This document shows, piece by piece, positions 20,564-53,683 of a stretch of 64,000 nt of DNA. The DNA lies in NCBI RefSeq assembly GCF_003934165.1, contig NZ_RKST01000014.1, forward strand, positions 1-64,000, given 5' to 3'. How positions within the stretch are numbered: the stretch's first letter is position 1; the number at the start of each line of letters is the position of its first letter. Source of the DNA: Borborobacter arsenicus (GTDB lineage: Bacteria; Pseudomonadota; Alphaproteobacteria; Rhizobiales; Rhizobiaceae). The notes beneath the pieces are model-generated. The model had not been told where the DNA came from and ran no database searches. It saw only the letters and a list, made by a program, of their open reading frames with translations. The position numbers and the translations under genes are program-made.

Positions 20564-20658
20564 GACCGTCCTCCCAAGGACGCGCCGCGGCTCTCGGTTC
20601 TCCGAGTGCTGCGGCGCTTACAAGACTATCCGGTAATCCGAAATTGGAGTGGAATTGC

Positions 20659-23373: not shown

Positions 23374-23377
23374 GCCG

Positions 23378-26303: not shown

Positions 26304-26369
26304 GGTGGCTGCCCGGCGGGTCGGCAAAATCCGGTCCGCCGGTGCTTTCCAGATAACTGGTCAGCATTC

Positions 26370-26398
26370 GAGCCCGCTCCAATCATGGCAGCGGGCTC
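26370..26398 (+). terminator. Attenuator hairpin between TRAP binding-protein and permease genes
   Basis: A perfect 9-bp stem (GAGCCCGCT / AGCGGGCTC) with an 11-base loop, followed by TTGTCCT. Such hairpins commonly keep binding-protein mRNA more abundant than permease mRNA. Confidence 0.55.
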
Positions 26399-26491
26399 TT
26401 GTCCTCAACCTTATATCCAGCTCCCGGCAAACGCAGCTTTTGCTGCACTGCGCACCGTCTACTGGGAGCCCCTATTGCAAGGCCTCACGCC

Positions 26492-30883: not shown

Positions 30884-30918
30884 TGTATTTCTCCTCGCAG
30901 GATCGCGCTCTACGTTGC

Positions 30919-31068
30919 CCCCCTCTGCCCTGCCGGGCATCTCCCCCACAAGGGGGGAGATTACGCTCATGTTGCCCTTCGTACTCTACCTCCCAAAAGT
31001 GGTGCGCAGACGTAGGTGAAGGCTAATCTCCCCCCTTGTGGGGGAGATGCCCGGCAGGGCAGAGGGGG
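30919..31068. repeat. Large inverted repeat between deoC and the ALDH gene
   Basis: Two perfect 45-base arms (30919-30963 and 31024-31068) surround a 60-base spacer. Each arm contains smaller hairpins (CCCTGCCGGGC, CTCCCCCAC..GGGGGGAG). Related modules (CCTCTGTCCTGCCGGAC) bound the composite repeat at 53361-53636. The RNA would form a very stable stem between two co-oriented genes and could limit readthrough or act as a processing site. Confidence 0.9.
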
Positions 31069-32661: not shown

Positions 32662-33489
32662 TCAGCCGACGAAGGCGCGTTCGACCAAGAAGCTGCCGGG
32701 ATTGCTGAGCGAGCCTTCAACGAAACCCAGCCCTTCGGCCAGCGCACGCACGTCGCGCAACATATGCATCGAGCCGCAGATCATGATGCGGTCGGTGGCG
32801 GGATCGAGCTTGTCGATGCCGAGATCGGTGTAGAACGAGCCGGATTCGATGAGCGCGGTGATGCGGCCCATGCGCCCGGAGGCCTCGCGCGTGGTGCTGT
32901 TATAGAGGCGGACGCGGCCATGCGTCAGTTCGCCGATCAGCGGGTCATCGGCAAGCTGCGCGAAAAGCTCGCGGCCATAGCGCAACTCGGCGGTGTCGCG
33001 GCAGGTGTGGGTGAGGATGAGCTGGTCGAATTTCTCATAGGTATCGGGATCGCGCAGCAGGCTGGCGAAGGGCGCGATGCCGGTGCCGGTGGAGATCATC
33101 ACCAGCCGCTTTGCCAGCGTCAGTGCATCGATCACCAGCGTGCCGGTCGCCTTGGGGCGCATCAGCACGATGTCGCCGGGCTCGATCTTCTGCAGATGCG
33201 AGGTGAGCGGGCCGTCCGGCACCTTGATGGAGAAGAATTCCAGTTCCTCGTCCCAGTTCGGGCTGGCAATGGAATAGGCACGAAACACCGGCTTTTCGGC
33301 ATTGGGCAAGCCGATCATGACGAATTCGCCCGAGCGGAAGCGCAGCGATTGCGGCCGTGTGATGCGAAACGAGAACAGCCGGTCGGTGTAGTGCTTCACC
33401 GAGACGACGGTCTGCGCATGGACATTGGCCGGAATCGGGAAATCGAGCGGCTTGGCGCCGGTCGGATCAGCCGCTGCCAGGGAATTCAT
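32662..33489 (-). CDS. fpr: Ferredoxin/flavodoxin-NADP reductase
   Basis: 275 residues. Seen are the FAD site RAYSIASP, the FAD/phosphate segment LTSHLQ, the NADP-binding GTGIAPFASLLRD and CGSMHMLRDV, and the C-terminal ERAFVG typical of bacterial subclass I FPR enzymes with a short C-terminal extension. It balances NADPH and reduced ferredoxin/flavodoxin pools and can aid oxidative stress defence. It is divergent from hyuA. Confidence 0.93.
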   Translation of the reverse strand: MNSLAAADPTGAKPLDFPIPANVHAQTVVSVKHYTDRLFSFRITRPQSLRFRSGEFVMIGLPNAEKPVFRAYSIASPNWDEELEFFSIKVPDGPLTSHLQKIEPGDIVLMRPKATGTLVIDALTLAKRLVMISTGTGIAPFASLLRDPDTYEKFDQLILTHTCRDTAELRYGRELFAQLADDPLIGELTHGRVRLYNSTTREASGRMGRITALIESGSFYTDLGIDKLDPATDRIMICGSMHMLRDVRALAEGLGFVEGSLSNPGSFLVERAFVG

Positions 33490-33676
33490 CCAGCCGGACC
33501 TTTCATGCGTTGAAGCGGCAAATCATCCTGCTTCGCCAGGACCTTGCGGTTCGGCGTGCTGCCGGATTGCCCAAAATGGTAAACTCTTGCGTGGGCGATT
33601 GATTAGTATACAAACGATCTTTGCGTCAAGATAACGATGGGACACGCGCGGGTGCGCTGCATTTCGGAAACGGCGC

Positions 33677-35743
33677 ATGGCTGAGACTGTTTCGGCAAGG
33701 GCAGGCGGCGTGGTCGCCGGGATCGATGTCGGCGGCACCTTCACCGACCTGTTGCTGTTCGATGCGGACACGGGCGGCGTGCGTGTTGCCAAGACGCTGA
33801 CCACCCCCGACAACCAGGCTTTCGGCGTCGTGGCGGCGCTGTCCGAATGCGGTTTCCCGGTCGAGGCGATCGATCTCATCGTGCATGGCACGACCACCAC
33901 CACCAACGCCGTGCTGGAGCGGCGGCTGGCGAAAACCGGCATGATCACCACCCGGGGTTTTCGCGACGTGATCGAACTTGGCCGGCGCACGCGGCCGCAG
34001 GCCTATGGCATGACCGGTGGTTTCACTCCCGTCATTCCGCGCGACCTCAGGTTGGAAGTGGCCGAACGCGTCGAGGCCTCAGGCGCGGTGCGCACGCCGC
34101 TGGACGAGGAAGAATTGCGCCAGGCAGTTCGCCTTCTGCTTGCAGCCGGCTGCGAGGCGCTGGTGATCCATTTCCTGCATTCCTACGCCAATCCGACGCA
34201 TGAAGAGCGTGCGGCCGAGATAGTCGCCGAACTCTGGCCGAACGACTACATCACCGTCGGTCACCGGCTGCTTTCGGAGGCGCGCGAGTTCGAGCGCGGC
34301 GTTACGGCTTCGGTGAATGCCGCGGTACAGCCGATCCTGGAGCGCTATATCAGCCGGCTGCGCGGCGAGTTGCAAACGCGTGGCTATCGCCGCGAATTCC
34401 TGATCATGAATGGCAATGGCGGCATGATCTCGGCCGGCAATGTCACCCGCGAATCCGCCAAGACGGTGATGTCCGGCCCGGCCTCGGGCGTGATTGCTGC
34501 CGCCTATACCGGGCGGCGCGCCGGCTACGGCAATCTCGTCACCTATGACATGGGCGGCACTTCCACCGATGTCGCGCTCGTGCGCGGCGCCGAACCGGCG
34601 GTCTCCAACGAGATCGAGATCGAATATGCCATGCCGATCCATGTGCCGATGATCGCGGTGCATACGATCGGGGCCGGCGGCGGCTCGATTGCCAGGGTGG
34701 ATGCCTCCGGCCTGATCCAGGTCGGGCCGCAAAGCGCGGGCGCCGATCCTGGTCCGATCTGCTACGGGCGCGGCGGTGCCGAGCCGACGCTGACCGACGC
34801 CAATCTGGTGCTGGGCCGGCTCGATCCGCGCCGGCTGCTTTCGGTCGACCGGCCGGTGAGCGTCGATGTCGTGCGCGACATCTTTGCCCGGAAGATCGGC
34901 GGCGCGGCCGGACTTGACGGGGTCGGGGCGGCGGGCGCGGTGCTGAAGCTGGGCAATATGAAGATGGCGGGTGCTGTCCGCATGGTTTCGGTGGCGCGCG
35001 GCAACGACCCGCGCGATTTCGTGCTGTTTGCCTTCGGTGGCGCGGGGCCGCTGCATGCGACGGCCCTTGCCCGCGAGCTTGGCTTGCCCAAGGTGCTGGT
35101 GCCGGCCCGTCCGGGCATCACCAATGCGCTCGGCTGCGTGGTGGCCGACCTGCGCCATGATTTCGTCAATACGATCAACCAGCCGGTGGCGCTGCTAGAC
35201 GAGGAAAAGATGCGGGCCGTGCTGGAGCGGCACCGTCTTCAGGGCGAGGAATTGATCACCAAGGAATCCGTACAGCCGGACGCGATCAGGGTGACGCATT
35301 CGGCCGATATGCAGTTCGTCGGCCAGACCCATATCATCAACGTGCCGCTGCCTTCGGCCGATGTGAGCCGCGCCATGCTGCAGGAACTGTTCGAGAAGGC
35401 CTATTTCGCTCGCTTCAAGGTGCAGCTTCCGGAAATTCGCGCCAATCTGGTCAATCTCAACACGTCGGTCACCGGGTTGCGGCCGCAGATCGACCTGTCG
35501 ATCCTGATAGACCCGGCCGGGAGGGCAGCGACGCTTGCCGAGGCTCTGCGCGAGCGGCGGCCGGTATGGTTCGACGGCACCTGGCATGACACGCCGGTCT
35601 ATCGACGTGAACGGCTTCCGCTGGATGCCGAGTTGCAGGGGCCAGCGATCATCGAGCAGATGGATGCAACCACGGTTCTGGAACCGGGCGATCACGCGCG
35701 GCTGGACGGCGATGGCAATATCATCATCGAGGTGGGCGCATGA
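33677..35743 (+). CDS. hyuA: Hydantoinase/oxoprolinase family protein, A subunit (HyuA)
   Basis: 688 residues. N-terminal ASKHA ATP-binding motifs GIDVGGTFTDLLLFD and VHGTTTTTNAVLERR; later YDMGGTSTDVALV, GAGGGSIARVD, QVGPQSAGADPGP and FGGAGPLHATALA. These are characteristic of N-methylhydantoinase A, acetophenone carboxylase and 5-oxoprolinase A subunits, which drive ATP-dependent lactam hydrolysis or carboxylation. It overlaps hyuB by 4 bases. It converges on the molybdenum-hydroxylase operon, so a cyclic amide formed there is a plausible substrate. Confidence 0.92.
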   Translation: MAETVSARAGGVVAGIDVGGTFTDLLLFDADTGGVRVAKTLTTPDNQAFGVVAALSECGFPVEAIDLIVHGTTTTTNAVLERRLAKTGMITTRGFRDVIELGRRTRPQAYGMTGGFTPVIPRDLRLEVAERVEASGAVRTPLDEEELRQAVRLLLAAGCEALVIHFLHSYANPTHEERAAEIVAELWPNDYITVGHRLLSEAREFERGVTASVNAAVQPILERYISRLRGELQTRGYRREFLIMNGNGGMISAGNVTRESAKTVMSGPASGVIAAAYTGRRAGYGNLVTYDMGGTSTDVALVRGAEPAVSNEIEIEYAMPIHVPMIAVHTIGAGGGSIARVDASGLIQVGPQSAGADPGPICYGRGGAEPTLTDANLVLGRLDPRRLLSVDRPVSVDVVRDIFARKIGGAAGLDGVGAAGAVLKLGNMKMAGAVRMVSVARGNDPRDFVLFAFGGAGPLHATALARELGLPKVLVPARPGITNALGCVVADLRHDFVNTINQPVALLDEEKMRAVLERHRLQGEELITKESVQPDAIRVTHSADMQFVGQTHIINVPLPSADVSRAMLQELFEKAYFARFKVQLPEIRANLVNLNTSVTGLRPQIDLSILIDPAGRAATLAEALRERRPVWFDGTWHDTPVYRRERLPLDAELQGPAIIEQMDATTVLEPGDHARLDGDGNIIIEVGA

Positions 35744-37485
35744 CCGCCCTCGACGCCATCACGCTTTCGGTCATCCAGGCGGCGCTGCAGCAGACCTGCG
35801 ACGAGATGGACCTGACCTTCAGCCGCGCCGCCTTCTCGCCGGTGATCTCGGAGGCCAATGACCGCTCCGACGGTATTTATTCGGCCGAGGATGGGTCGCT
35901 GATCGCGCAAGGGTCGCAGGGCCTGCCGGTCTTCGTTGGCGTCATGCAGCATTCGACCGCCACCATAATCGAGATGATCCGCGACGGGCGCTGCCAGTCG
36001 CCGCTGGAGGGCGACATCTACATCGTCAACGATCCCTATCTGGGCGGCACGCATCTGATGGATGTGCGCTTCGCCATGCCGGTCTGGCGCGGCGGAAAAA
36101 TCTTCTGCTGGCTGTCCAACACCGGCCATTGGCCCGATATTGGCGGCGCGGTGCCGGGCGGCTTTTCGGCCTCGGCGACGGCTGTCGAGCAGGAGGGGCT
36201 ACGGTTGCCGCCGGTGAAACTGTTCAAGGGCGGAAAGCTCGACCCGGAAATCTATGCAATCATCTGTTCGAATATCCGCGTCGCCGACCAGCGCATCGGT
36301 GACATCTCCGCGCAGGCGGCAGCACTGCGCGTCGGCGAGGAGCGTCTATGCGCCGTCCTCGACCGTTACGGTGACGAAACGGTGCTTGCGGCCATTGCCG
36401 AATTGCGCAAGCGTGCGGCCGCCCAAATGCGCGCTCATATCGCCGCCATTCCGGACGGGACCTACCGCGCCAAGGCCTTCGTCGATTCGGACGGCGTGGT
36501 TGACCTGCCGCTGACCATCGCGTTTGCGGTGGAGAAGGTCGGCGATACGCTCACTTTCGACTTTGCCGGTTCGAGCCCGCCCTGTGCCGGCCCGATGAAC
36601 AGCGTGCTCGCCACCACGCTGTCCTCGGTCTATCTGGCCATGCGCCATATCTTCCCTGACGTGCCGATGAGCGCCGGCGCCTTCGAGCCTCTGCTGGTGA
36701 AGCGGCCGGAAGGGACCTTCCTCGACGCGCGCTATCCGCGGCCGGTGTCGGGCTGCGCGGCGGAGGTGTCGCAGCGCATCGCCGAGGCCGTGTTCGCCGC
36801 ACTCGTGCAGGCTCTACCGGACAGGGTGACGGCTGCTCCTGCCGGCTCCAGCGGCAATTTTGCGCTCGGCGGTCACGACCCGGCGCGCGGCCGCGATTAT
36901 GTCATGTACCAGATTTCGGGCGGCGGCTATGGCGGCAATGCCGGCCATGACGGGCTGTCCAATGGCTGCTCGACCATCGGCATCTCGAAATCGCCGCCGG
37001 TGGAAATCATGGAACAGGCCTATCCGGTGCTTTACCGGCACTATGCGTTGCGCGAGGGTTCTGGTGGGGCAGGTGAAAGGCGCGGCGGCTTCGGCCTTGC
37101 CTATGAGGTGGAACTGTTGCGGGGCGAGGCGCGCGCCTCCTTCGTCATGGATCACGGCCGGGTCGGGCCACAGGGCGTGCGCGGCGGCAGGGATGGCGCG
37201 GTCAACACCGTGACGGTGTACCGGGACGGGCAGGCGCATGTGCCGCCGCATCTTTCCAAGGAACAGGACATTGCGCTGAAGGCGGGCGACCGGGTTGCGG
37301 TCGGCACACCGGGCGGCGGCGGCTATGGCGATCCGCTCCGCCGCGACCCGGCGCTGGTGATGAACGATGTAAGCCTCGGCTACTACACGTGCGAACAGGC
37401 GGCGGAACTGTTCGGCGTGGTGTTGGATGAGGCCGGTGCGGTGGATGGAGCGGCGACGGCGACACGGCGGGCTGGCGGAAAGTGA
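35740..37485 (+). CDS. hyuB: Hydantoinase/oxoprolinase family protein, B subunit (HyuB)
   Basis: 581 residues. Seen are IVNDPYLGGTHLMDV, WLSNTGHWPDIGG, and GGGYGGNAG and GTPGGGGYGDP near the C-terminus, all of the hydantoinase B family. It forms the complex with HyuA. The start overlaps the hyuA stop (ATGA). It ends 42 bases before the end of the convergent MarR gene. Confidence 0.92.
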   Translation: MTALDAITLSVIQAALQQTCDEMDLTFSRAAFSPVISEANDRSDGIYSAEDGSLIAQGSQGLPVFVGVMQHSTATIIEMIRDGRCQSPLEGDIYIVNDPYLGGTHLMDVRFAMPVWRGGKIFCWLSNTGHWPDIGGAVPGGFSASATAVEQEGLRLPPVKLFKGGKLDPEIYAIICSNIRVADQRIGDISAQAAALRVGEERLCAVLDRYGDETVLAAIAELRKRAAAQMRAHIAAIPDGTYRAKAFVDSDGVVDLPLTIAFAVEKVGDTLTFDFAGSSPPCAGPMNSVLATTLSSVYLAMRHIFPDVPMSAGAFEPLLVKRPEGTFLDARYPRPVSGCAAEVSQRIAEAVFAALVQALPDRVTAAPAGSSGNFALGGHDPARGRDYVMYQISGGGYGGNAGHDGLSNGCSTIGISKSPPVEIMEQAYPVLYRHYALREGSGGAGERRGGFGLAYEVELLRGEARASFVMDHGRVGPQGVRGGRDGAVNTVTVYRDGQAHVPPHLSKEQDIALKAGDRVAVGTPGGGGYGDPLRRDPALVMNDVSLGYYTCEQAAELFGVVLDEAGAVDGAATATRRAGGK

Positions 37486-37527
37486 CGAACGGATATACCG
37501 CCGGTGCGAGAAAACGGCGGCGCGCGT

Positions 37528-37992
37528 CTATGCCAGCCTGGCGAGCAGCTTGAGGAATGTGGCCACCTCCTTGGGCGACAGCGGCGACAGCGTCTCCTCG
37601 GTGATGCGTGTGGCGAGCGGGATCAGCGCATCGACCGTGCGGCGGCCTTCGACTGTCAGGCTGACCAGCAGGCGGCGCCTGTCCCCGTCATGGCGGGAAA
37701 GCTCCACCAGCCCGCGCGCCCGCAGCCGGTCGATGACGCCCTTGACGGTTGCGGCATCCATGGCGACCAGCGCGCCAAGCTGGTTCTGCGAGGTGTCGCC
37801 GCCGACATCGCGCAGCTTGGCGAGTGCCGCAAATTGCGGCGGCGTCAGGTCGCTGATGTAGGAGGAGAAAATGGCGACGTGGCGCTGCTGCGCGCGCCGC
37901 AGGATGAAGCCGACCTGATCCTGGAGGTGATATTCTCCCGATTCCGACTCCTCAGCATCGACAAGCTTGAGGATATTGTCTTCGCCGGTCAC
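37528..37992 (-). CDS. MarR-family regulator at the end of the Mo-hydroxylase operon
   Basis: 154 residues. The MarR winged helix is seen in SDLTPPQFAALAKLRD, NQLGALVAMDAATVKGVIDRLRARGLVE and wing HDGDRRRLLVSLTVEGRR. It is the last of six genes whose ends overlap (4 bases with the gene before it), so it is probably an autoregulating sensor of the operon's aromatic or heterocyclic substrate. Confidence 0.9.
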   Translation of the reverse strand: MTGEDNILKLVDAEESESGEYHLQDQVGFILRRAQQRHVAIFSSYISDLTPPQFAALAKLRDVGGDTSQNQLGALVAMDAATVKGVIDRLRARGLVELSRHDGDRRRLLVSLTVEGRRTVDALIPLATRITEETLSPLSPKEVATFLKLLARLA

Positions 37993-38573
37993 CGCAACCC
38001 GTCCCAGGCCTTGATGTCTTCCGCCTTCAGGCCGCCCATGCGGTTATGGATGCGCGGGCCGCAGGCCATTGCGAGACAGAACACGATCTCGTCCGCGCGC
38101 GGTCCGTCGCTCAGCCCCACCTCCATCGCGTCGAAATGGCTGCGCACATAGGCGGCGTTGATATGGCCGAGCGGCACGTCGATGCGCGCGCCGAAGGCCC
38201 CGACCTTCTTGGCTGAAGGCACGATCGCCTTGGCTTCGCCCAGTCGCTCGCGCATGGCATAACCCCCCGGCACATGCCACAGTGCGCCATGCTCCAACTC
38301 GCCGGCGGTTCCGACGATTGCACCCTTGCCGTAACCGTCGATCGCCTTGATGTCGTCGCCCAGAGCCGCAATCAGCCGGTCTGTGAGCATCAGGCCGAGC
38401 GGCTTCAAATCCTCCATGGCGCTTTCGAGATCGGCTTCATGGCGCCCGGCGAAGGGGTTCTTCACCACCGCAAGCGCTGCGGCACGCCGGCGCGGCGTGG
38501 CCGGGGCCGGACCGCCATCGTGGATGATCTCTTCGGTCAATACCGCGATTTTGCGGATGGGGAATCTAGGCAT
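37989..38573 (-). CDS. 'Amino acid synthesis' family protein (AmAS)
   Basis: 194 residues from the ATG at 38573. It matches the small AmAS family: KIAVLTEEIIHDGG at the start, AVVKNPFAGRHEADL, GYGKGAIVGTAGELEHG and DEIVFCLAMACGPRIHNRMGG. The biochemical role is unknown despite the family name. Homologues occur with UPF0280 and hydroxynicotinate-reductase-like genes in other alphaproteobacteria, so a role in ring cleavage or product handling is inferred. It overlaps its neighbours by 4 and 8 bases. Confidence 0.85.
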   Translation of the reverse strand: MPRFPIRKIAVLTEEIIHDGGPAPATPRRRAAALAVVKNPFAGRHEADLESAMEDLKPLGLMLTDRLIAALGDDIKAIDGYGKGAIVGTAGELEHGALWHVPGGYAMRERLGEAKAIVPSAKKVGAFGARIDVPLGHINAAYVRSHFDAMEVGLSDGPRADEIVFCLAMACGPRIHNRMGGLKAEDIKAWDGLR

Positions 38574-39477
38574 TGGGCAACTCCTTGGAAATCTCTGTGT
38601 GCGCGGTGATAGGCCGAGACCTTTTGAGGGGGGTATCGTCGAGCGCAACCGTGCCGAAGAATCGCATATCACCACCCAGAAACAGCGCGGCCGCCTCGAT
38701 CAGGCCACGCCGCCAAAATTCCTCGGCAAGGGCGAACCCGCTACCGAGTGCGGAGGCGATCTCGCCGGGTTTGAGCGGGCCGACATCGACGGTGACCGGC
38801 CTGTCGCCGAGGTCGCTGTCCGGGGCGAGGTCACAGGCGGGCACACGCCGCACGGTTGGATGACCGGGCAAGTCGACCGCATTGGCGATCAGCGTTGCGG
38901 CGGCGTCAGCTTCCGCCGCCGTTTTCGCCAGCACGGTGACGGCGTCGGCAATGCCGAGCGAATAGCTGCGGCCGCGCCAGCCGCTGGTGGCGATGCCGCG
39001 CACCGGGTCGGCGAAGCCGATCATGATGCGGTCGGCAAATCCATGACCGGTGCCGGCAATGGCAGCTTTCATGACAGCGCCCTCGGCAAGATGAATGGCA
39101 ATGTCACCGCCATCATTGACATAGGCTTTTTCAAGTCGCCGGCCGGTGCACATGGCGGCGAGCATCTCATCGGCCACCGCGCCTGCGACCGCCGCCATCG
39201 GCGTGATGAATGCGGGCGCATGGCGGCAGACGGCACGTTCCATGCGCTGTGCTATCACCCCATGGAAGGCGCGCGTCGTGGCGGTGGCCGGGCGGCGCAA
39301 CTCGGCAAGTTCCTCCACCAGTCCCGTCAGCACCGTGTCGAAACGCGCTATCGCCTGTTCATAGGCGGCGCGGCGTTCGGCTTCCTCACCAAACGCTTCG
39401 ATAATGAGGTCGATCGGCCCATGATTGAGGTGGAGGCGCCTGCCGTCGGCCAGCCATGCGATCTGCGGGCCGGTCAT
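38566..39477 (-). CDS. UPF0280 family protein (ApbE-related)
   Basis: 303 residues from the ATG at 39477, which overlaps the end of the reductase-like gene by 4 bases. Seen are HLNHGPIDLIIEAFG at the start and AYVNDGGDIAIHL plus SGWRGRSYSLGIADAVTVLA, which mirror the GGDI and SG(T)S...ADAxxT motifs of the ApbE flavin transferase superfamily. The function is unproven. It could attach a flavin to, or otherwise mature, an enzyme of this operon; that is speculation. Confidence 0.85.
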   Translation of the reverse strand: MTGPQIAWLADGRRLHLNHGPIDLIIEAFGEEAERRAAYEQAIARFDTVLTGLVEELAELRRPATATTRAFHGVIAQRMERAVCRHAPAFITPMAAVAGAVADEMLAAMCTGRRLEKAYVNDGGDIAIHLAEGAVMKAAIAGTGHGFADRIMIGFADPVRGIATSGWRGRSYSLGIADAVTVLAKTAAEADAAATLIANAVDLPGHPTVRRVPACDLAPDSDLGDRPVTVDVGPLKPGEIASALGSGFALAEEFWRRGLIEAAALFLGGDMRFFGTVALDDTPLKRSRPITAHTEISKELPNA

Positions 39478-41018
39478 TTGCCGTGCCCTCCAGGGTCGGA
39501 GAGACGCAGGCCATGCAGCGGCGGCCATGGGTTGTCGCCGGGGGCAAGGCGGCGTTCGTGCCGATTGAAATAGGCGCCGCCGCCAGCCTCCACATCCTCG
39601 ATCGTGCGGATTTCGTCGGCATAGCCGCCAAGCCGGAGATAATCGTCGCGGCGCAGCGTGAATTCGAGTGGCGCCACCAGCGCCGGTGTCGGTACATAGC
39701 CGAAGGCGTTGTCGGGCACGCGGCTGACATCGACCATCAGCGTGATGCCGCCGCCCGGCCAGACATAGACGGGCGCACCGCCAACGGTGACATAGGTCTG
39801 GAGCCCATGGACGGAGCGGGTGAGATTGACCGGGTTCTCCACCACACCGGCTCGCAGCGATCCGCCTGCACCGCCGACGAACAGCACCGTGCACAGCGCC
39901 GGCTCGCAATTCTGCTCGATCAGGTCGACGGATTTGCGCAGCCGTTCAGGAAAAGGTTTTTCCACCGGTCGCAGGTCGTCATCGAGTTCGAAATAGGCGA
40001 ATTGCTCGCCTGTGGTGGAAACCATCAGCAGCGACAGGCCGGGGTGTGCGCCCTTTTTCGGGTTCCACTCGCCGAGGATCGACAACGGGTCGGAGATCGT
40101 CGTGCCGCCCCAGCCAAGCCCGGGCTCGGAGACCTTGAAATAGCGACCGGGCGTGGAGCGGTGGCCGATCACCTTGATGCCGGTGTCCTGCCAGCCGAGC
40201 ACCTTGCCGGCCTGGTGCTCGGAAACAACGCCGGTGATGTGGTCGTCGACCACCACCACCTCGTCCACCAGGCCGCGCCATTGTGTGGCAAACATGCCGA
40301 TGGCGGCCGAGCCGCAGCCGACGCGCATGCGCTTTTCCGTCACGCCGTCGATGATGGGCGCGTTGCCGGCCTGGACGACGACACTGGCACCACCGTCGAT
40401 CGACAGTTCCACCTTCTGCTTGTTGCACAGCGCAAGCAGTGTGGCGCAGGTGACGTGGCCCTCCGCTTTGGAACCGCCTGTCAGATGATTGACGCCGCCC
40501 AGCGACAGCATCTGCGAGCCATATTCGCCGGTGGTGACATGGCCGACCGCTTCGCCTTCGGCACGCACGGTGGCGGTTTCGGGCCCCAGGAAACGGTCTG
40601 TGTCGATCTTCATTTTGGCGCCGCAATAGGAAAATATACCCTCCGTCACCACGGTGACGAGATCGACGCCCGCGACCTCCTGGCTGACGATGAAGGGCGC
40701 GGGTTTGTAGTCGGGGTAGGTGGTGCCGGCGCCGATGGCGGAAACGAAGCGGCGGCCGGTATTGACCAGTTCTCCGCTCCAGGCCTCGCCCTCTCCGGCA
40801 AATGGGACGGAACTGCCGCCGGTTTCGGTGTGGTATTCGAGGATCGTCACCGGATCGAGCCTCACGATCCTGCCATCTACATTGCCATAGCGGTCGCAGG
40901 CTCCGGTGCGGCCTTCGGCGATGTAGCACATGACCGGGCAGGCGTCGCAGCGGAGCTTTTCGCCGACCTGTTTGGCGCCGGGATCATGCGTCTCGAAGCG
41001 TTCGGATATCTCGCTCAT
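39474..41018 (-). CDS. 6-hydroxynicotinate reductase-like Fe-S protein
   Basis: 514 residues. Near the N-terminus Cys24-x2-Cys27-x3-Cys31-x9-Cys41 (RCDACPVMCY ... GACDRYGN) forms a likely [4Fe-4S] site. The rest shows Gly-rich segments such as HVTTGEYGSQMLSLGGVNHL, RVGCGSAAIGMF and FVGGAGGSLRAGVVENPVN. This is the family named after Eubacterium barkeri 6-hydroxynicotinate reductase, which reduces the pyridone ring to tetrahydro-6-oxonicotinate. In this operon it follows a molybdenum hydroxylase, the order expected for such a pathway. The substrate in this organism is not proven. Confidence 0.8.
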   Translation of the reverse strand: MSEISERFETHDPGAKQVGEKLRCDACPVMCYIAEGRTGACDRYGNVDGRIVRLDPVTILEYHTETGGSSVPFAGEGEAWSGELVNTGRRFVSAIGAGTTYPDYKPAPFIVSQEVAGVDLVTVVTEGIFSYCGAKMKIDTDRFLGPETATVRAEGEAVGHVTTGEYGSQMLSLGGVNHLTGGSKAEGHVTCATLLALCNKQKVELSIDGGASVVVQAGNAPIIDGVTEKRMRVGCGSAAIGMFATQWRGLVDEVVVVDDHITGVVSEHQAGKVLGWQDTGIKVIGHRSTPGRYFKVSEPGLGWGGTTISDPLSILGEWNPKKGAHPGLSLLMVSTTGEQFAYFELDDDLRPVEKPFPERLRKSVDLIEQNCEPALCTVLFVGGAGGSLRAGVVENPVNLTRSVHGLQTYVTVGGAPVYVWPGGGITLMVDVSRVPDNAFGYVPTPALVAPLEFTLRRDDYLRLGGYADEIRTIEDVEAGGGAYFNRHERRLAPGDNPWPPLHGLRLSDPGGHGK

Positions 41019-43759
41019 CGTCCCGCCTCCCTTATCGCGGCGCGGATGCGCGATGGCGTTGCCGGGATTTTCGTGACCGGAACGCCGGTGGCATGGCGGA
41101 TCGCGTTGAGGATGGCGGGCGCGGTCGGGATCAGCACATGCTCGCCCAACCCTTTGGCACCGAAGGGTCCTTCCGGGTCCGGAACTTCTATCAGGATGGT
41201 TTCGATCGGTGGAACGTCGCCGATGGTGGGAATGAGGTAGTCGTGCAGGTTCTCGGTGCGGCCGGGGATATATTCCTCCATCAGCGCCATGCCGATGCCT
41301 TGCGCGATGCCGCCTTCGATCTGGCCTTGTGCCAACAGGGGATTGATCGCGCGGCCGACATCATGCGCGGCGGTGATCTTGACGAGCTTCACCGTGCCGA
41401 GCTTGAGATCGACTTCCAGTTCGGCAATTTGCGCGCCATAGCCGAACACGGCATAGGGCGTGCCCTGGCCCTTCGCGTCGAGCGGCGCCGTCGGCGGATC
41501 GTAAGTTTCCTCGGCGGTGAAGACGAGACCATCGGCATCGGGGGTTAGAGCGGAAAGGCCGATGCGGCGGGTAGCGTCGCCCTCGCGGATGATGAGCAGG
41601 CAACCTTCAAGGCTCAGCGCGGCATGATCGGAGACATTGGCGAAGCGGAGTATTTTTTCACGCAGGCTTTTCGCCGCCTTCTCGGCCGCCTTGCCGGAAA
41701 CGAAGGTCTGGCGCGAAGCGGACGTCTTGCCGGCATCCGGCGTGATTGCCGTATCGGCGCTCCTCAGAGCGATCAGGGTCAGGGGCACGCCGAGCGCATC
41801 GGCGGCGATCTGGGCAATCACCGTATTGGAGCCCTGGCCGATATCGACAGCACCCTGATGTAGCACGACTTGTCCCTCGGGCGAGATGCCGAGCTTGATG
41901 GTCGAGGGATTGGGCAGCGAGGTGTTGCCGCAGCCATACCAGCAGGAGGCCACGCCGACCCCGCGTTTCATGTGCCCGTTTTCGGCATCGAAGCGCCCGG
42001 CATCGGCGAGCGCGCGTTGCCAGTGCGGCTTGAGCGCCTCCAGGCAATCGGCGATGCCGACACCTTCCTCAAGCAGTTGTCCCGTAACCGTTTCGGAGCC
42101 GTTCCGAAGCGCATTCTTCAGCCGGAATTCGAGCCGGTCGATGCCGGCCTTTATGGCGAGCGCGTCGTAAAGCGTCTCCTGGCAGATGGTGGCTTGCGGC
42201 ACGCCGAAGCCACGAAACGCGCCGGAGATCGGTCCGTTGGTGTGGATAGCACGGCCAAGCGCCCGGTAATTTGGCGTCACATAGGGCCCTGACGCATGCA
42301 CCGGCACGCGGTTCGCCACCGTCGGGCCCCAGCTTGCATAGGCGCCGGTGTCGAAATCGCCGGAAAAGACCATGCCGCAAATCCGGCCCTGCGCGTCGGC
42401 GCCGATGGTCGCCCGCATCGCGGCGGGATGGCGCTTGGTGGTCGATGTCATGGATTCGTCACGAGTGAAGCAGAGCGCCGCCGGGCGGCCGGTCTTCAGC
42501 GCCACCAGTCCGACCAGCGGCTGCACCGAGAGATCGAGCTTGGAGCCGAAGCCGCCGCCGGTCGCGGTCGGCACGATGCGGACCTTTTCAGGTGGCAGGC
42601 CAAGCAGGCGGGCGGTGTCGGCGCGGTCCATATAGGGCGCCTGCGTGCAGGCAGTGACGACCAGCGTATCGCCATCCATATGGGCAAAGCCCGCCTCCGG
42701 CTCGATATAGGCATGCTCGACATATGAAGTTTCGATCATATCCGAAACGATATGGGCGGCTGCGGCAAGCGCGGCTTCAGGATCGCCGTGCTCGACGAAA
42801 CCCTGGGTGAGCAGGTTTCCGGGTCGGCCGGCATGCAGCAGCGCGGCATCGCCGGTCTGTGCGGTCTCGGTGTCCAGCAATGCGGGCAGTTCAGTCCAGG
42901 CGATCGGGAAGGCGGAAAGATCGAGAGATGCGATGGCGTCTGGCTCGCCGGCAATCACCGCCACCGCCTCACCGCGAAAGCGCGTACTGCCTTCTGCAAG
43001 CGCCGGTTGGTCGGCAAAGGGCGGAATGACGCCGAAGCGATTTTCGCCCGGAATATCCGCTGCGGTGTAGATGTCGACGATGCCGGGATGTTCGGCCTGA
43101 TACGCCTCCAGATCGCCGAAGGCAAAGCGCGCATGGTGATGCGGCGAGCGGATGACGGCCAAGGCAAGCGCATCGGCCGGGAAGCTGTCGCCGCCGAATT
43201 TTTCGGTGCCGTTGATTTTGGCAATACCGTCAAGCCGGATCGGCGAGGCACCGACGGCATGGCCGGCGGGGGGCAGGCCGAGATCGAGTCCGCTGCCGGG
43301 GCGAGCACTATCCATCACCGCAGCGATAATCTTGCGATAGCCGGTGCAGCGGCACAACACGCCGCCGAGCGCGTCCCTGACCTCGTCTTCGGCCGGGTGC
43401 GGATTGCGCTCCAGCAGCGCGGTTGCCGCCATCAGCATGCCCGGCGTGCAGATGCCGCATTGGGCTGCGCCGTGCCGCAGGAACGAGGCTTGCAGCGCCG
43501 AGAGTCTGCCATTGCCAAGGCCCTCGACCGTGCGCACATGCGCGCCCGCGACGGAAGCGGCGGGCACGAGGCAGGCGCAGACCGGCTCGCCATCGAGCAG
43601 CACGGTGCAGGCGCCGCAATCGCCGGCATCGCAGCCGACCTTGGTGCCGGTGAGCCGCAATTCGTCGCGCAGCACCGAGGACAGGCGCTGGACCGGTGCG
43701 GCACTGACGGTGACGGCGCTGCCGTTGACGGTGAAGACGATTTCGCCGCGCGCGCTCAT
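41015..43759 (-). CDS. Xanthine dehydrogenase-family molybdenum hydroxylase, fused 2Fe-2S and molybdopterin subunits
   Basis: 914 residues from the ATG at 43759. Residues 1-150 carry two 2Fe-2S sites: Cys43, 48, 51, 63 (VGCDAGDCGACTV) and Cys101, 104, 136, 138 (CGICTPG, CRCTGY). The remainder is the molybdopterin domain, with GGGFGSK, GAFRGFGVPQ, QGAVDIGQGSN, and the active-site Glu in GAKGLGEH. Such enzymes hydroxylate N-heteroaromatic rings. Small and large subunits are usually separate or fused with FAD; this 2Fe-2S/Mo fusion with a separate FAD gene is less common. It overlaps both neighbours by 4 bases. Confidence 0.93.
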   Translation of the reverse strand: MSARGEIVFTVNGSAVTVSAAPVQRLSSVLRDELRLTGTKVGCDAGDCGACTVLLDGEPVCACLVPAASVAGAHVRTVEGLGNGRLSALQASFLRHGAAQCGICTPGMLMAATALLERNPHPAEDEVRDALGGVLCRCTGYRKIIAAVMDSARPGSGLDLGLPPAGHAVGASPIRLDGIAKINGTEKFGGDSFPADALALAVIRSPHHHARFAFGDLEAYQAEHPGIVDIYTAADIPGENRFGVIPPFADQPALAEGSTRFRGEAVAVIAGEPDAIASLDLSAFPIAWTELPALLDTETAQTGDAALLHAGRPGNLLTQGFVEHGDPEAALAAAAHIVSDMIETSYVEHAYIEPEAGFAHMDGDTLVVTACTQAPYMDRADTARLLGLPPEKVRIVPTATGGGFGSKLDLSVQPLVGLVALKTGRPAALCFTRDESMTSTTKRHPAAMRATIGADAQGRICGMVFSGDFDTGAYASWGPTVANRVPVHASGPYVTPNYRALGRAIHTNGPISGAFRGFGVPQATICQETLYDALAIKAGIDRLEFRLKNALRNGSETVTGQLLEEGVGIADCLEALKPHWQRALADAGRFDAENGHMKRGVGVASCWYGCGNTSLPNPSTIKLGISPEGQVVLHQGAVDIGQGSNTVIAQIAADALGVPLTLIALRSADTAITPDAGKTSASRQTFVSGKAAEKAAKSLREKILRFANVSDHAALSLEGCLLIIREGDATRRIGLSALTPDADGLVFTAEETYDPPTAPLDAKGQGTPYAVFGYGAQIAELEVDLKLGTVKLVKITAAHDVGRAINPLLAQGQIEGGIAQGIGMALMEEYIPGRTENLHDYLIPTIGDVPPIETILIEVPDPEGPFGAKGLGEHVLIPTAPAILNAIRHATGVPVTKIPATPSRIRAAIREAGR

Positions 43760-44613
43760 GCCGCCACCGCATTGGCGCTGGGTGGATCGGCGGCGGCCAG
43801 CACGGCCCGTGTGACGATCTCGCGCGCCGCTTCGCGCCTGTAGCCGGCGCTGGCACGGACATCGTCGATCGGTGCGAGCTCGCTCAGTTCGGCTGTCGCG
43901 ATTGCCGTGGCGATGTCGGCTACAGCGATGCCGCGCAGCGCGGTTTCGACGCCGGTAAGGCGCTTCGCGACCGCCGAGCAGGAGCCCACCGCGATGGCGG
44001 CCTGTTTGACGATACCATCCGCGATGACAAGGCGGGCCGCGGCCATGGCGATGGATATGACCAGATAGCGGCGCGCGCCGAGCTTGAAGAAGGCGGAAGT
44101 GCCGGCAGTTGACGGCTTGGGGATGCGGATTGCGGTGACCATTTCGCCCGGCTGCAATGCGGTGCGCCGATTGCCGAGGATGAAGCGGTCGAGCGGCAGA
44201 AAGCGGGACGATGCCGTTGAGCGGATCTCTACCGCCGCATCGAGGGTGAGCAACGGCGGCACCCCATCCGCCGCCGGCGAGGCATTGCACAGATTGCCGG
44301 CGATCGAGGCCATGTTCTGGATCTGCACCGAGCCGACTTCGCGCGCGGCAAGCTTCAGTCCGTCGAAGGCGGCGGGCAGGTCATGGCAGATGAGATCGGT
44401 CCAGGTGGTGCGCGCGCCTATGATGACTTGGTCAGGCGTTTCGGCGATGCCGCGAAGTTCGCCAAGGCCGTTGATGTCCAATATGTCTTCGCGCGGTGGC
44501 CGGTTGCCCAGCGCCGGGTAGAAATCGGTGCCGCCCGCCAGAATCCGCCACGACCCCTCGCCGAGCAGCGCAAGCGCCGCTTCGATCGAGGTGGGTTTTG
44601 CGTAACGGATCAC
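43756..44613 (-). CDS. FAD-binding subunit of the molybdenum hydroxylase
   Basis: 285 residues using a GTG start at 44613, chosen because GGGAG lies 7 bases upstream and the protein begins VIRYAKPTSIEAALALL as in CoxM/XdhB subunits; an ATG at 44706 would add 31 atypical residues. The FAD motifs ILAGGTDFYP and QIQNMASIAGNLCNASPAAD are present. It passes electrons from the 2Fe-2S centres. It is the first gene of the six-gene operon, divergent from pncA. Confidence 0.9.
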   Translation of the reverse strand: MIRYAKPTSIEAALALLGEGSWRILAGGTDFYPALGNRPPREDILDINGLGELRGIAETPDQVIIGARTTWTDLICHDLPAAFDGLKLAAREVGSVQIQNMASIAGNLCNASPAADGVPPLLTLDAAVEIRSTASSRFLPLDRFILGNRRTALQPGEMVTAIRIPKPSTAGTSAFFKLGARRYLVISIAMAAARLVIADGIVKQAAIAVGSCSAVAKRLTGVETALRGIAVADIATAIATAELSELAPIDDVRASAGYRREAAREIVTRAVLAAADPPSANAVAA

Positions 44614-44797
44614 GCACTGCCTCCCGGTCGCGACGAATTCGGCAGGTCGCGGCAAATCCGCTCGAAGCAACCACTTTGCGCGTTCTTTGCCTGTGCGGGT
44701 GAGCACATGCGCGCTTGGTGGCGACCGCCAAATTCATTCGTACACAAATGATACCAGTGCCTTGGGGGAATTCAAGGCGCCGTTTCCTGTCGGATTG

Positions 44798-44818
44798 CGG
44801 CCATAACAGGCCGTTTTT
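44798..44818 (+). terminator. Small terminator-like hairpin upstream of pncA
   Basis: CGGCC, loop ATAACA, GGCCG, then TTTTT. It lies in the divergent region between the FAD-subunit gene and pncA, reading toward pncA, and could be an attenuator in its leader. The 44614-44890 region otherwise holds no gene. Confidence 0.35.
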
Positions 44819-44890
44819 GGCCGATTGGCGGTTGACGTGGGAGGCCTTCTGGACGACTTTCCGGCTTCAAAAATGACGGGTGGTGGTTAC

Positions 44891-45490
44891 ATGGCCGACG
44901 AGGCGCTGATCGTCATAGATGTACAGAACGATTTTTGTCCCGGCGGCAGTCTCGCCGTTGCGGGTGGCGACCAGATCGTGCCGCTGATCAACGAGATGAT
45001 CGGCCGTTTCGAGCATGTGATCCTGACGCAGGACTGGCATCCGGCCGACCATTCGAGCTTTGCCTCCAGGCATCCCGGAAAACAGCCCTTCGAGACGATC
45101 GCCATGCCCTATGGCGAACAGACGCTGTGGCCCGACCATTGCATCCAGGGCTCAGGCGGCGCGGCGTTTCATCCGGCGCTGAAATGGGCGAAGGCCGAAC
45201 TGGTGCTGCGCAAGGGTTATCACCGCAAGATCGACAGCTATTCGGCCTTCTTCGAGAACGACCGCACGACGCCGACAGGGCTGGCGGGCTATTTGCGCGA
45301 GCGCGGCATCGGTCGGCTCACGCTCGCCGGTCTGGCAACAGATTTCTGCGTCGCCTATTCGGCGCTCGATGCGGTCGCGCAAGGCTTCAATGTGACCGTG
45401 CGGCTTGATGCCTGTCGCGGCATTGACCTTGCCGGGTCGCTGGACCGGATGATCGGCCAAATGAAAGCGGCGGGCGTGACGCTCGCCTGA
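44891..45490 (+). CDS. pncA: Nicotinamidase/pyrazinamidase
   Basis: 199 residues. The catalytic triad Asp10 (VIDVQNDF), Lys108 (LRKGY) and Cys153 (ATDFCVAYSALDA) is complete, as is the metal site (Asp48, His50 in QDWHPADH and His83). It deamidates nicotinamide to nicotinate and ammonia. ATG at 44891 is preceded by a modest GGTGG; an ATG at 44873 is possible. Being divergent from a nicotinate-type hydroxylase operon, it could feed both NAD salvage (pncB at 53.7-55.0 kb) and nicotinate breakdown. Confidence 0.93.
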   Translation: MADEALIVIDVQNDFCPGGSLAVAGGDQIVPLINEMIGRFEHVILTQDWHPADHSSFASRHPGKQPFETIAMPYGEQTLWPDHCIQGSGGAAFHPALKWAKAELVLRKGYHRKIDSYSAFFENDRTTPTGLAGYLRERGIGRLTLAGLATDFCVAYSALDAVAQGFNVTVRLDACRGIDLAGSLDRMIGQMKAAGVTLA

Positions 45491-47046: not shown

Positions 47047-47754
47047 TCAGCCGACGCCGACATAGCGCTTGATCAGCGACGGGTCGCCGCGCAGCCGTTC
47101 GACTTCGACGGTTTCGCGGCTGCGGCCGTTCTCGATGAAGGTGACGCGGTCGGCAAGTGACAGCACCGCATCGACCCGCTGTTCGACCAGTATGGTGGAG
47201 ACGCCGGTCGAGCGTAGGCTTGCCACCGTCTCGCGGATACGTGCGATCATCGAGGGCATCAGCCCTTCGGTCGGCTCGTCTAGCAAAAGCACCTCCGGCT
47301 CAAGGCAAAGGGCGCGCGCCATGGCAAGCATCTGCTGCTCGCCGCCCGACAGCGTGCCGGAGCGCTGCCTGAACCGCTCGCGCAGCACCGGGAACAGTTC
47401 CAGCACCCTTTCCCTTGTCGCTTGCCCCTTCCTCCGGGTCATCAGGCCGATCTCGATGTTCTCGGCGACGGTCATTTCGGCAAACAGCCGCCGGCCCTGC
47501 GGCACATAGGCGACGCCGGCTTTCGGCACCTCATGGGCCGGCAGCACCGTCAGTTCGGTGCCGCCGAGCCGGATCGAGCCGGCGCGGGCGGGAACCAGCC
47601 CCATGATCGCCTTCAAGGTCGTCGTCTTGCCGGCGCCGTTGCGGCCGAGCAGGCAATGCACTTCGCCCTGTTTCAGGGTAAGGCCAAGCCCGTGCAGCAC
47701 CTGCACTTCGCCATAGAAGCAGTCGACCCCGGCGATGGCGAGCACGTCAGCCAT
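47047..47754 (-). CDS. livF: Branched-chain amino acid-type ABC ATPase
   Basis: 235 residues from the ATG at 47754; the longer frame upstream lies in livG. Walker A GRNGAGKTTT, Q-loop VAYVPQGRRLF, signature LSGGEQQMLAMARAL, Walker B VLLLDEPTEGL. LivF-type members are recognised by GVAYVPQGR. Overlaps livG by 8 bases. One of two ATPases of the importer. Confidence 0.92.
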   Translation of the reverse strand: MADVLAIAGVDCFYGEVQVLHGLGLTLKQGEVHCLLGRNGAGKTTTLKAIMGLVPARAGSIRLGGTELTVLPAHEVPKAGVAYVPQGRRLFAEMTVAENIEIGLMTRRKGQATRERVLELFPVLRERFRQRSGTLSGGEQQMLAMARALCLEPEVLLLDEPTEGLMPSMIARIRETVASLRSTGVSTILVEQRVDAVLSLADRVTFIENGRSRETVEVERLRGDPSLIKRYVGVG

Positions 47755-48478
47755 GGTTTTCGGTCCCAAGATAGGCGCGCTGGACGGCCTCATCGGCGCG
47801 GATTTCCTCCGGCATGCCTTCGGCCAGGATCTTGCCGGCATTCATGACGGTGATGCGCCGGGCAAGCTCCATGACGACATCCATATTGTGCTCGATCAGA
47901 AGCACGGTGGCGGAACTGGCAATGTCGCGCACCAGCCCCATGAAGCCGTCGATCTCGCTGTCTGAGAGCCCCTGCGTCGGCTCGTCGAGAATGAGCAGGC
48001 GCGGCTTGAGCGCGAGACCCATCGCCACTTCCAGCAGGCGCTGATGGCCGTAAGAGAGAGCACCGGCTTGTATGTTGGCGCGGTCGGCAAGGCCGGTGTG
48101 CTCCAAGGCGCTCATGATCGCCGCGTGCAGGTGGGTTTTGGCACGGCCATCTTCCAAGGTGCGCTGCGCCGGCAGCGCGACATTGTCGTAGGCGCTGAGA
48201 TTGGGAAAGACGCTGGTGATCTGGAACGTATAGGCAATACCGCGTCGGACCCGCAGATGCGCGGGCATATGGGTGATGTCCTCGCCGTCGAAGACGATGG
48301 TGCCGGAGGTCGGCGGAACCCGGCCGCATACCAGGCTGACAAAGGTGGTCTTGCCGGCGCCGTTGGGCCCGATGATGGCGCGGATTTCGCCGGTCGCCAG
48401 CGAGAAATCGACGCCATCCACCGCGCGCAGTCCGTCATAGGCTTTCGTGAGCCCGCGCGTGGTCAGGAGCGGCGTCAT
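47747..48478 (-). CDS. livG: Branched-chain amino acid-type ABC ATPase
   Basis: 243 residues from the ATG at 48478, which overlaps the permease stop; an ATG at 48487 is possible. Walker A GPNGAGKTT, Q-loop region AYTFQITSVFPNLSAYDN, signature variant LSYGHQRLLEVAMGLA, Walker B LLILDEPTQGLS. The LSYG signature is usual for LivG-type subunits. Works with livF, M and H. Confidence 0.92.
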   Translation of the reverse strand: MTPLLTTRGLTKAYDGLRAVDGVDFSLATGEIRAIIGPNGAGKTTFVSLVCGRVPPTSGTIVFDGEDITHMPAHLRVRRGIAYTFQITSVFPNLSAYDNVALPAQRTLEDGRAKTHLHAAIMSALEHTGLADRANIQAGALSYGHQRLLEVAMGLALKPRLLILDEPTQGLSDSEIDGFMGLVRDIASSATVLLIEHNMDVVMELARRITVMNAGKILAEGMPEEIRADEAVQRAYLGTENHG

Positions 48479-49440
48479 GGCAGCCACCCTGCCCAGCGCG
48501 CGCGTATGGTGCCCAGTATGCCTTTCGGGAAGAAAAGCACGAGCAGGATGAGTGCGATGCCGACGATGAGCAGATAGGCCGAGGTGTAGCTCGAAGTGAT
48601 GTCGATGACATAATACATGAACAGCGTGCCGATGAACGGGCCGAGCGTGGTGGCGGCACCGCCGAGCAGCACCCAGAGCAGGGGCAGGATCGAATATTGT
48701 ACGCCGGCAAAGGTTGAGCCGGCATAGCCGAAGAGCAAGGCATAGGCGGCGCCTGCCGTGGCGCAGATCGTGCCCGACAGCACGACCGCGGCTAGCTTGT
48801 TGGCGAAGGTGTCGTAGCCAAGCATGCGCGCACGGTCCTCGTTTTCGCGGATCGCCACCAGCACCCGGCCGAAGGAGGAGCGCACGGCAATAAGCGTGGC
48901 GAAAAGCACGATCGCGAATATCGCCAGCGCCAGCAGGTAGCGCGTCGTCGGGTCGGTGAGGTTGAGATAGAAATCGCCGACAAAGAAGCGGCGTATCTCC
49001 TGGCTAAGCACGATGCCATCGTCGCCGCCGGTCCATTCGGCGAAGTAGAAGGTCAGCAGATAGAATACCTGCGCGAACATCATGGTGACGATCATGAAGG
49101 CGACACCGGTGGTGCGCAGTGCCAGAAGCCCGATGGCGGTGGATAGGGCAGCCCCACAGGCAATGCCGGCTGCAAGCCCGGCGGGAATGCTCCAGCCGAG
49201 ATGGTAGACGCTGAGGCCGGCGCCATAGAGGCCGGCGGCAAAGAACATGGCGTGGCCGAGGCTGAGCAGCCCGGTATAGCCGAACAGGATGTTGTAGCCC
49301 ATGGCGAAGACGGAAAGCAGCATCACGCGGGCAAGCACGGCGTGATGATATTCCGGCAGGACGAAATTCAGCGCAAACAGCAGCGCGACCACACCCGCGT
49401 GCAGGACGAGGATTCGAGGAGGAAGGGCGGAACTCCTCAT
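48475..49440 (-). CDS. livM: Branched-chain amino acid-type ABC permease
   Basis: 321 residues, about eight to ten membrane segments. LivM motifs include GYNILFGYTGLLSLGHAMFFA, LRTTGVAFMIVTMMFAQ and RVLVAIRENEDRARMLGYDTF. It overlaps livH and livG by 4 bases each. Forms the channel with livH. Confidence 0.92.
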   Translation of the reverse strand: MRSSALPPRILVLHAGVVALLFALNFVLPEYHHAVLARVMLLSVFAMGYNILFGYTGLLSLGHAMFFAAGLYGAGLSVYHLGWSIPAGLAAGIACGAALSTAIGLLALRTTGVAFMIVTMMFAQVFYLLTFYFAEWTGGDDGIVLSQEIRRFFVGDFYLNLTDPTTRYLLALAIFAIVLFATLIAVRSSFGRVLVAIRENEDRARMLGYDTFANKLAAVVLSGTICATAGAAYALLFGYAGSTFAGVQYSILPLLWVLLGGAATTLGPFIGTLFMYYVIDITSSYTSAYLLIVGIALILLVLFFPKGILGTIRARWAGWLP

Positions 49441-53636: not shown

Positions 53637-53683
53637 AGATGGAAAGCCGGGGCGTCAAAGATATGCTCCCGTTCAGGCCGGCT

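Follow-up and report, generated by a model that had tools for sequence, protein, structure and literature searches.

A probable nicotinate locus of Borborobacter arsenicus in which HyuAB may stand in for enamidase

The reductive nicotinate route and the Borborobacter locus

Two described systems frame the locus reported here. In Eubacterium barkeri, nicotinate is fermented by hydroxylation, reduction to 1,4,5,6-tetrahydro-6-oxonicotinate (THON), and hydrolytic ring opening; the last of these steps, with deamination, is carried out by a bifunctional enamidase (PMC9304392). A nicotinate gene cluster that includes a homologue of 6-hydroxynicotinate reductase (HNR) is described for Azorhizobium caulinodans, Bradyrhizobium, Rhodopseudomonas palustris and strain SG-6C, and nicotinate use is reported for the last of these (PMC3511419). 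We analyzed a stretch of 64,000 nucleotides (the window) from contig NZ_RKST01000014.1 of Borborobacter arsenicus (assembly GCF_003934165.1; genome of 5.45 Mb, code G000), in which a gene for an HNR homologue lies in an operon that faces hyuA and hyuB, the genes for a two-subunit hydrolase. This is quite probably a nicotinate locus of the reductive THON route in which HyuAB takes the place of enamidase.

The locus shares with the cluster of PMC3511419 the HNR homologue, the genes of the first three steps, an ABC transporter and a pair of conserved proteins of unknown function. The latter pair very likely corresponds to UPF0280 and AmAS. The difference is that HyuAB here seems to replace the third-step enzyme. 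Unlike E. barkeri, B. arsenicus has no detected enamidase of the 2vun family: none of its proteins matched at E ≤ 1e-60, which bears out a remark made in an earlier reading of the sequence alone (the sequence-only reading). Because this enzyme was not found, we file the locus as a variant, not a full member, of the THON route. The same reading had likened the system to the reductive route of E. barkeri and Azorhizobium, which the annotated HNR homologues and the printed cluster support, but it had also called it undescribed. That description must be withdrawn: the cluster of the route already appears in PMC3511419, and among HNR homologues of 59–71% identity in 26 plasmid records, 17 are annotated as 6-hydroxynicotinate reductase (3 are annotated as hypothetical protein, and 6 are unannotated there). 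The part that is new relative to the known route is HyuAB as ring opener. In the literature that was searched, mostly outside subscription journals, no title or abstract linked HyuAB or UPF0280 to nicotinate, and UPF0280 itself went unmentioned.

The genes and sites on which the argument turns are as follows.

43756..44706, minus strand: FAD subunit (gene fad) of a molybdenum hydroxylase of the xanthine dehydrogenase family, at the head of the operon (Pfam FAD_binding_5, 140 bits; CO_deh_flav_C)
41015..43759, minus strand: fused 2Fe-2S/molybdopterin subunit, predicted nicotinate 6-hydroxylase (Pfam Fer2, Fer2_2, Ald_Xan_dh_C, MoCoBD_1, MoCoBD_2)
39474..41018, minus strand: HNR, 6-hydroxynicotinate reductase homologue (annotated homologues, printed cluster)
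38566..39477, minus strand: UPF0280 protein with an ApbE-like fold (NCBIfam PRK04334.1-2, 388.2 bits against a cut-off of 290)
37989..38573 (ATG start), minus strand: AmAS/DUF1185, Bacillus chorismate mutase-like family (Pfam PF06684, 229.5 bits against a cut-off of 27; structure 3byq, E = 1.1e-56)
37528..37992, minus strand: MarR-family regulator (Pfam MarR_2, MarR)
33677..35743, plus strand: HyuA, ATP-binding subunit of a putative ATP-dependent ring-opening hydrolase (Pfam Hydantoinase_A)
35740..37485, plus strand: HyuB, metal-binding partner of HyuA in the putative ring-opening hydrolase (Pfam Hydantoinase_B)
44825..45490, plus strand: PncA nicotinamidase, divergent from the operon (NCBIfam NF008623, 216 bits against a cut-off of 174)
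44733..44752, minus strand: operator-like inverted repeat between fad and pncA (35.4 bits)
33599..33618, minus strand: the same operator upstream of hyuA, ending 58 bases before its ATG (22.6 bits)

The layout given in the sequence-only reading was accurate. Its six-gene operon with overlaps of 4 to 8 bases is indeed present: fad, the 2Fe-2S/molybdopterin gene, hnr, the UPF0280 gene, the AmAS gene and marR overlap in succession by 4, 4, 4, 8 and 4 bases. Strands and gene ends place hyuAB convergent on marR and pncA divergent from fad. The gene labels agree with Pfam and NCBIfam domain searches; that of HNR rests on its annotated homologues and PMC3511419, because no Pfam or NCBIfam model scored above its cut-off and the name must be taken from relatives. 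For pncA, the listed open reading frame begins at TTG 44825; since the match to the nicotinamidase model starts only at residue 24, ATG 44891 is the likelier start.

Ring openers, shared operator and catalytic residues

The two candidate ring openers were counted in genomes sampled from larger groups, with orthology accepted at 60% identity or more for enamidase (the query for which matches structure 2vun with E = 2.3e-109) and at 65% or more for HyuB. Among the 92 HNR-bearing genomes of the order sample (397 genomes), 52 had enamidase only, 32 had HyuB only, 3 had both and 5 had neither. A further 54 HNR-bearing genomes of the family sample divided into 13, 40, 1 and 0, respectively. Combined, the 146 genomes comprise 65 with enamidase only, 72 with HyuB only, 4 with both and 5 with neither, exactly one opener being present in 137. 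Two of the five genomes scored as having neither (G183 and G394) are drafts in which HNR lies on a short contig, and the other three (G215, G309 and G393) contain HyuB relatives of 58–60% identity, below the accepted line. Both states of the opener are found within each of two genus codes (g16, genomes G018 and G120; g66, genomes G068 and G152).

HyuB orthologues follow HNR closely: 35 of the 36 in the order sample come from genomes that also have HNR. Only 1 of the 305 HNR-negative genomes of the order has one, as do 2 of 80 in the family, a count that leaves out 16 of 96 genomes (two of them genus mates outside the family sample); a third HNR-negative family genome, G101, has a match of 58% identity, under the line. 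Fisher's test of HyuB versus enamidase gave 3.6e-30, a value that ignores ancestry. On trees of HNR, the opener switched at least 5 times among 90 proteins and 8 times among 142. In the 8 independent pairs that the larger tree offers, enamidase changed opposite to HyuB in 5–7 and parallel to it in none. (The smaller tree leaves out G283 and G332, which are fragments; the larger omits these as well as G114 and G131.)

A side observation concerns enamidase itself. Twelve genomes of family code f16 (G249, G280, G373, G392, G426, G454, G468, G480, G492, G514, G526 and G537) have an enamidase orthologue of 72–77% identity and no detected HNR.

The hyuAB genes are also connected to the operon by a common operator. 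A conserved block, TATCATTTGCATACGAATGAA, recurs in an alignment of 73 promoters from the fad/pncA intergenic region, that of the window included. When the 64 kb were scanned with a matrix built from 22 distinct fad-promoter sites of other species, the window's own site being excluded, the sites before fad and hyuA were the two best, and the best unrelated place scored 2.6 bits. A pattern derived from these two sites, with 3 mismatches allowed, retrieved only the same two from the 5.45-Mb genome, a result that is partly circular by construction. We then restricted attention to loci with hyuA at least 75% identical to that of the window: the operator precedes hyuA in 35 of 35 (minimum 15.0, median 26.5 bits), and six other genes of these loci had median scores of −10 to −18. 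About 2% of random stretches reach the hyuA median; most likely, these cover the true sites. Three of the loci (L255, L256 and L257, all of genus code g74, which is probably Mesorhizobium) carry the operator before hyuA even though hyuAB is remote from hnr, at a distance of 73 kb in G076 and 98 kb in G286 and on a separate contig in G357. The protein that binds the shared operator is likely the MarR regulator. Further matches to the two-site pattern occur in G286, G107 and G062, and a reversed control pattern also matches G062 (3 times) and G107 (once); the match in G286, at 2261913, is flanked by a LysR-like gene and an AraC/GlxA-like gene, as read by eye.

The catalytic residues of the family are in place. 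Of the HyuA motifs DVGGTFTD and DMGGTSTD, the first Asp is kept in 39 of 40 aligned rows (the other row has a gap) and in 40 of 40, respectively. Residues D11 and D295, which bind phosphate in the caprolactamase subunit CapA, correspond to D17 and D291 of the window's HyuA, and the metal ligands D41, H99, D102 and H124 of CapB correspond to D41, H105, D108 and H130 of HyuB (alignment to 6yra_B), conserved in 38 of 38 rows. In caprolactamase, loss of those metal ligands or of a phosphate-site Asp abolishes or nearly abolishes activity (PMC8453981). HyuAB resembles CapAB as a member of the same two-subunit family with the same ATP and metal residues. Another member, the oxoprolinase OplAB, opens the six-membered δ-valerolactam with ATP (PMC11033972). 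The predicted substrate of HyuAB differs from those of CapAB and OplAB in being an unsaturated, pyridone-derived lactam. Since THON is a six-membered lactam, its opening by HyuAB would be a chemically ordinary proposal; ATP would probably be used on this enamide as well. The suggestion in the sequence-only reading that HyuAB could open a cyclic amide has gained in substance: its complementarity to enamidase, its shared operator and its retained caprolactamase residues make it the likely opener.

The HNR core and its neighbors

Within the genus, HNR was found in 1 of 4 genomes; the corresponding counts are 57 of 151 for the family, 92 of 397 for the order and 32 of 398 for a phylum-wide sample that overlaps the others. 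It is nearly always present in a single copy per genome. The 80 nearest named loci belong mostly to Mesorhizobium, with Aminobacter, Nitratireductor and relatives making up the remainder. For a survey of gene neighborhoods, which the sequence-only reading had proposed for the six-gene block, we took 159 HNR loci flanked by 6 kb or more on either side, in two sets that may share a few organisms (set A, 65 loci; set B, 94). UPF0280 is present in 154 (65 of 65 in set A, 89 of 94 in set B) and AmAS, often in two copies, in 142 (62 of 65 and 80 of 94). HNR, UPF0280 and AmAS therefore form a constant core, and the block occurs far above chance. MarR accompanies it in 65 of 65 and 78 of 94 neighborhoods.

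Around this core are slots with variable occupants. The window's type of hydroxylase (fused 2Fe-2S/molybdopterin plus FAD subunits) fills its slot in 117 of 159 neighborhoods (64 of 65 in set A, 53 of 94 in set B), and a type composed of 2Fe-2S and molybdopterin/cytochrome c subunits does so in 20 (0 of 65 and 20 of 94); the two never occur together, and neither was seen in 22. The ring-opener slot behaves similarly: hyuB is found in 30 of 65 and 25 of 94 neighborhoods and enamidase in 0 of 65 and 25 of 94, never together. A cluster in Neorhizobium NCHU2750 combines annotated nicB, fpr, Liv genes, marR, hnr, the UPF0280 gene, two AmAS genes, hyuA and hyuB; a separate check confirmed all of these members apart from nicB and the Liv genes, which are taken from the annotation.

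The HNR protein itself was characterized by alignment. Cysteines C24, C27, C31, C41, C132, C235 and C371 are invariant among 39 rows, and eight cysteines in all are kept in at least 38 rows. The Hnr of E. barkeri has three Fe-S clusters and a covalent flavin; eight conserved cysteines are fewer than three all-Cys clusters would require. Searching the PDB with HNR, by sequence and by profile, returned nothing credible, and an AlphaFold model computed from 45 close sequences had a pLDDT of 44.

What might UPF0280 and AmAS contribute? The AlphaFold model of UPF0280 (pLDDT 88) superimposes on structures of ApbE, Ftp and FmnB with Z scores of 13.9–15.8 and root-mean-square deviations of 3.2–3.8 over 201–215 residues, versus Z scores of at most 8.1 for unrelated rows, and comparison with the ApbE profile gave a probability of 94% (E = 1.1e-7). 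UPF0280 is like the ApbE/Ftp flavin transferases in its fold and in its NGGD, ATSG and ADAxAT stretches. It is unlike them in lacking their HTxDPRxG stretch with its conserved His: the profile alignment shows nothing equivalent in UPF0280. The idea that it is a standard ApbE was rejected: the Pfam ApbE model scores 10.5 bits (E = 0.43), well short of its cut-off of 25.6, and this key stretch is absent from UPF0280. One candidate role is the flavinylation of HNR, which is attractive given the covalent flavin of the E. barkeri enzyme. No ApbE-type target motif was recognized by eye among the invariant Ser and Thr residues of HNR, and HNR matched the ApbE profile with a probability of 0.2. In 14 of the 35 HNR genomes searched, no ApbE scoring over the cut-off was found. 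Such gaps would give UPF0280 a place to fill but are no proof, since the B. arsenicus genome does have an ApbE (G000:C34).

AmAS belongs to DUF1185, a family with a chorismate mutase-like fold for which a tentative connection to amino-acid metabolism has been made (PMC2954203). Clusters that contain an enamidase orthologue, on Comamonadaceae and Sulfitobacter plasmids, have UPF0280 and AmAS too. This finding speaks against the notion in the sequence-only reading that the two stand instead of enamidase; because they occur with either ring opener, they probably serve a shared step.

The remaining genes of interest in the window lie on either side of the locus.

32662..33489, minus strand: ferredoxin-NADP reductase-like protein (best NCBIfam model NF008178, 136 bits, under its cut-off of 390)
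47047..50318, minus strand: Liv-type ABC transporter, two ATPases and two permeases, likely for uptake (livH homologues near HNR; Liv annotation beside hnr)
50501..51805, minus strand: periplasmic substrate-binding protein of the Liv-type transporter (Peripla_BP_6, 164 bits)
53684..54988, minus strand: nicotinate phosphoribosyltransferase (pncB-like), nicotinate salvage (NAPRTase, NAPRTase_N)

A livH homologue occurs in 55 of 65 set A and 62 of 94 set B neighborhoods, a ferredoxin-NADP reductase-like gene in 31 of 65 and 34 of 94, and a pncB-like homologue in 0 of 65 and 6 of 94, the flanks of set A mostly stopping short of its position. The pncB-like gene, the transporter as a steady companion of HNR and the operator common to fad and hyuA are additions to the sequence-only reading. 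Between pncA and the Liv genes, at 45606–47033 (plus strand), is a CitMHS_2 citrate-transporter-like membrane protein that is kept in many Mesorhizobium loci. A reading frame at 51943–53658 (minus strand) matches no Pfam model at E ≤ 1e-8, yet several HNR neighborhoods contain homologues of it, 39–55% identical; it is possibly a member of the locus. The gene at 28508–30970 (minus strand), beside deoC (31109–32155, minus strand), encodes a protein of 820 residues in which two stretches are of the aldehyde dehydrogenase type. Both genes accompany hyuAB in three g74 genomes; the 820-residue protein could serve in the oxidation of glutarate semialdehyde or be a housekeeping neighbor. Farther out, a proline-racemase-like gene, TctA and DctP/DctM transporter genes (20560–21672, 23291–24868 and 25200–28412, plus strand) form an ordinary uptake block. 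In one lineage (L186, L176, L180, L178 and L182), a CoA-transferase gene lies downstream of the HNR clusters, which fits an exit through glutarate; for the L176 copy, the best model is succinate-glutarate CoA-transferase, at 231 bits against a cut-off of 750.

Proposed pathway, its alternatives and its meaning

From the gene content and its conservation, we infer the following route. Nicotinate would be taken up by the Liv-type transporter or produced from nicotinamide by PncA. The molybdenum hydroxylase would convert it to 6-hydroxynicotinate, which HNR would reduce to THON, with electrons perhaps supplied by the neighboring ferredoxin-NADP reductase-like protein. HyuAB would then open the six-membered lactam of THON, probably at the expense of ATP, a step that falls to enamidase in E. 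barkeri and probably in many other HNR-bearing bacteria; deamination and breakdown via glutarate would follow. The operon, pncA and hyuAB would be controlled by the MarR regulator through the one operator.

Several observations weigh against this scheme. The complementarity of the two openers was counted in genomes that share ancestry, and with the tree taken into account the sign test was barely significant (median p = 0.03, range 0.016–0.063, for 142 proteins); on the smaller tree, with 90 proteins, p was 0.125–0.5. Enamidase is present in 13 of the 305 HNR-negative genomes of the order and must therefore have other uses. The operator was not found in the 0.8–1.1 kb upstream of enamidase in any of five relatives, two with enamidase but without HyuB (G077 and G120) and three with both enzymes (G054, G357 and G396), so enamidase is not visibly part of the same regulon in these five; the latter three do have the operator before hyuA. 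(It was likewise not found before the enamidase genes of G248 and G007, distant lineages in which another operator is likely.) HyuA and HyuB score 512.7 and 329.6 bits, respectively, far under the caprolactamase equivalog cut-off of 1000 (NCBIfam NF050156/NF050157). Finally, pncA, present in 65 of 65 set A neighborhoods, is found in only 19 of 94 in set B, and three g74 genomes keep hyuAB with fpr, deoC and the aldehyde dehydrogenase gene, away from hnr.

This last arrangement would suit a reading in which HyuAB is an ordinary hydantoinase or oxoprolinase of the deoC/aldehyde dehydrogenase block that adjoins the nicotinate operon by accident. We consider such an accident very improbable, and it was already disfavored: HyuB orthologues of the order sample are nearly confined to HNR-bearing genomes, the operator precedes hyuA in every locus tested, and in distant lineages hyuAB adjoins the hnr core at loci where no homologue of deoC was detected. 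Somewhat less remote, but still improbable, is the degradation of a different N-heterocycle, such as a substituted pyridine or a pyrimidine, by the same logic of hydroxylation, reduction and hydrolysis. Hydantoinase-type enzymes act on many cyclic amides, and the window's fused hydroxylase subunit reaches no NCBIfam equivalog cut-off. Nicotinate is nonetheless favored by the pncA gene beside the operon throughout set A, the pncB-like gene in the window, the company of annotated nicB and the hnr core in Neorhizobium, and the HNR homologue in the cluster of SG-6C, a reported nicotinate user (PMC3511419).

The alternative that we take most seriously, unlikely as it is, accepts the reductive route and reassigns the ring opening: UPF0280, AmAS or an unseen amidohydrolase would perform it, and HyuAB would act on a related side substrate under the same regulation. 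UPF0280 and AmAS are indeed in nearly every HNR cluster, and a common operator implies common control, not a common pathway step. However, the two proteins also lie beside enamidase orthologues, which makes them unlikely replacements for that enzyme, and HyuB is complementary to enamidase to the point that only 5 of 146 HNR genomes have neither. The reductive THON route with HyuAB as its ring opener is thus the reading that we prefer. A bolder version of it, which we regard as doubtful, would make HyuAB the first lactam hydrolase driven by ATP in the catabolism of pyridine rings, opening THON and repeatedly swapped with a metal-only enamidase, and UPF0280 a dedicated ApbE-fold maturation factor that attaches the covalent flavin reported for HNR.

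For a large group of rhizobia and their relatives that have the reductase and no detected enamidase, these results provide a candidate for the ring-opening step. The opener would likely be one that consumes ATP, repeatedly exchanged with one that needs none. They also connect UPF0280 and AmAS, both of them orphan families, with the reductive nicotinate route and narrow their possible functions.

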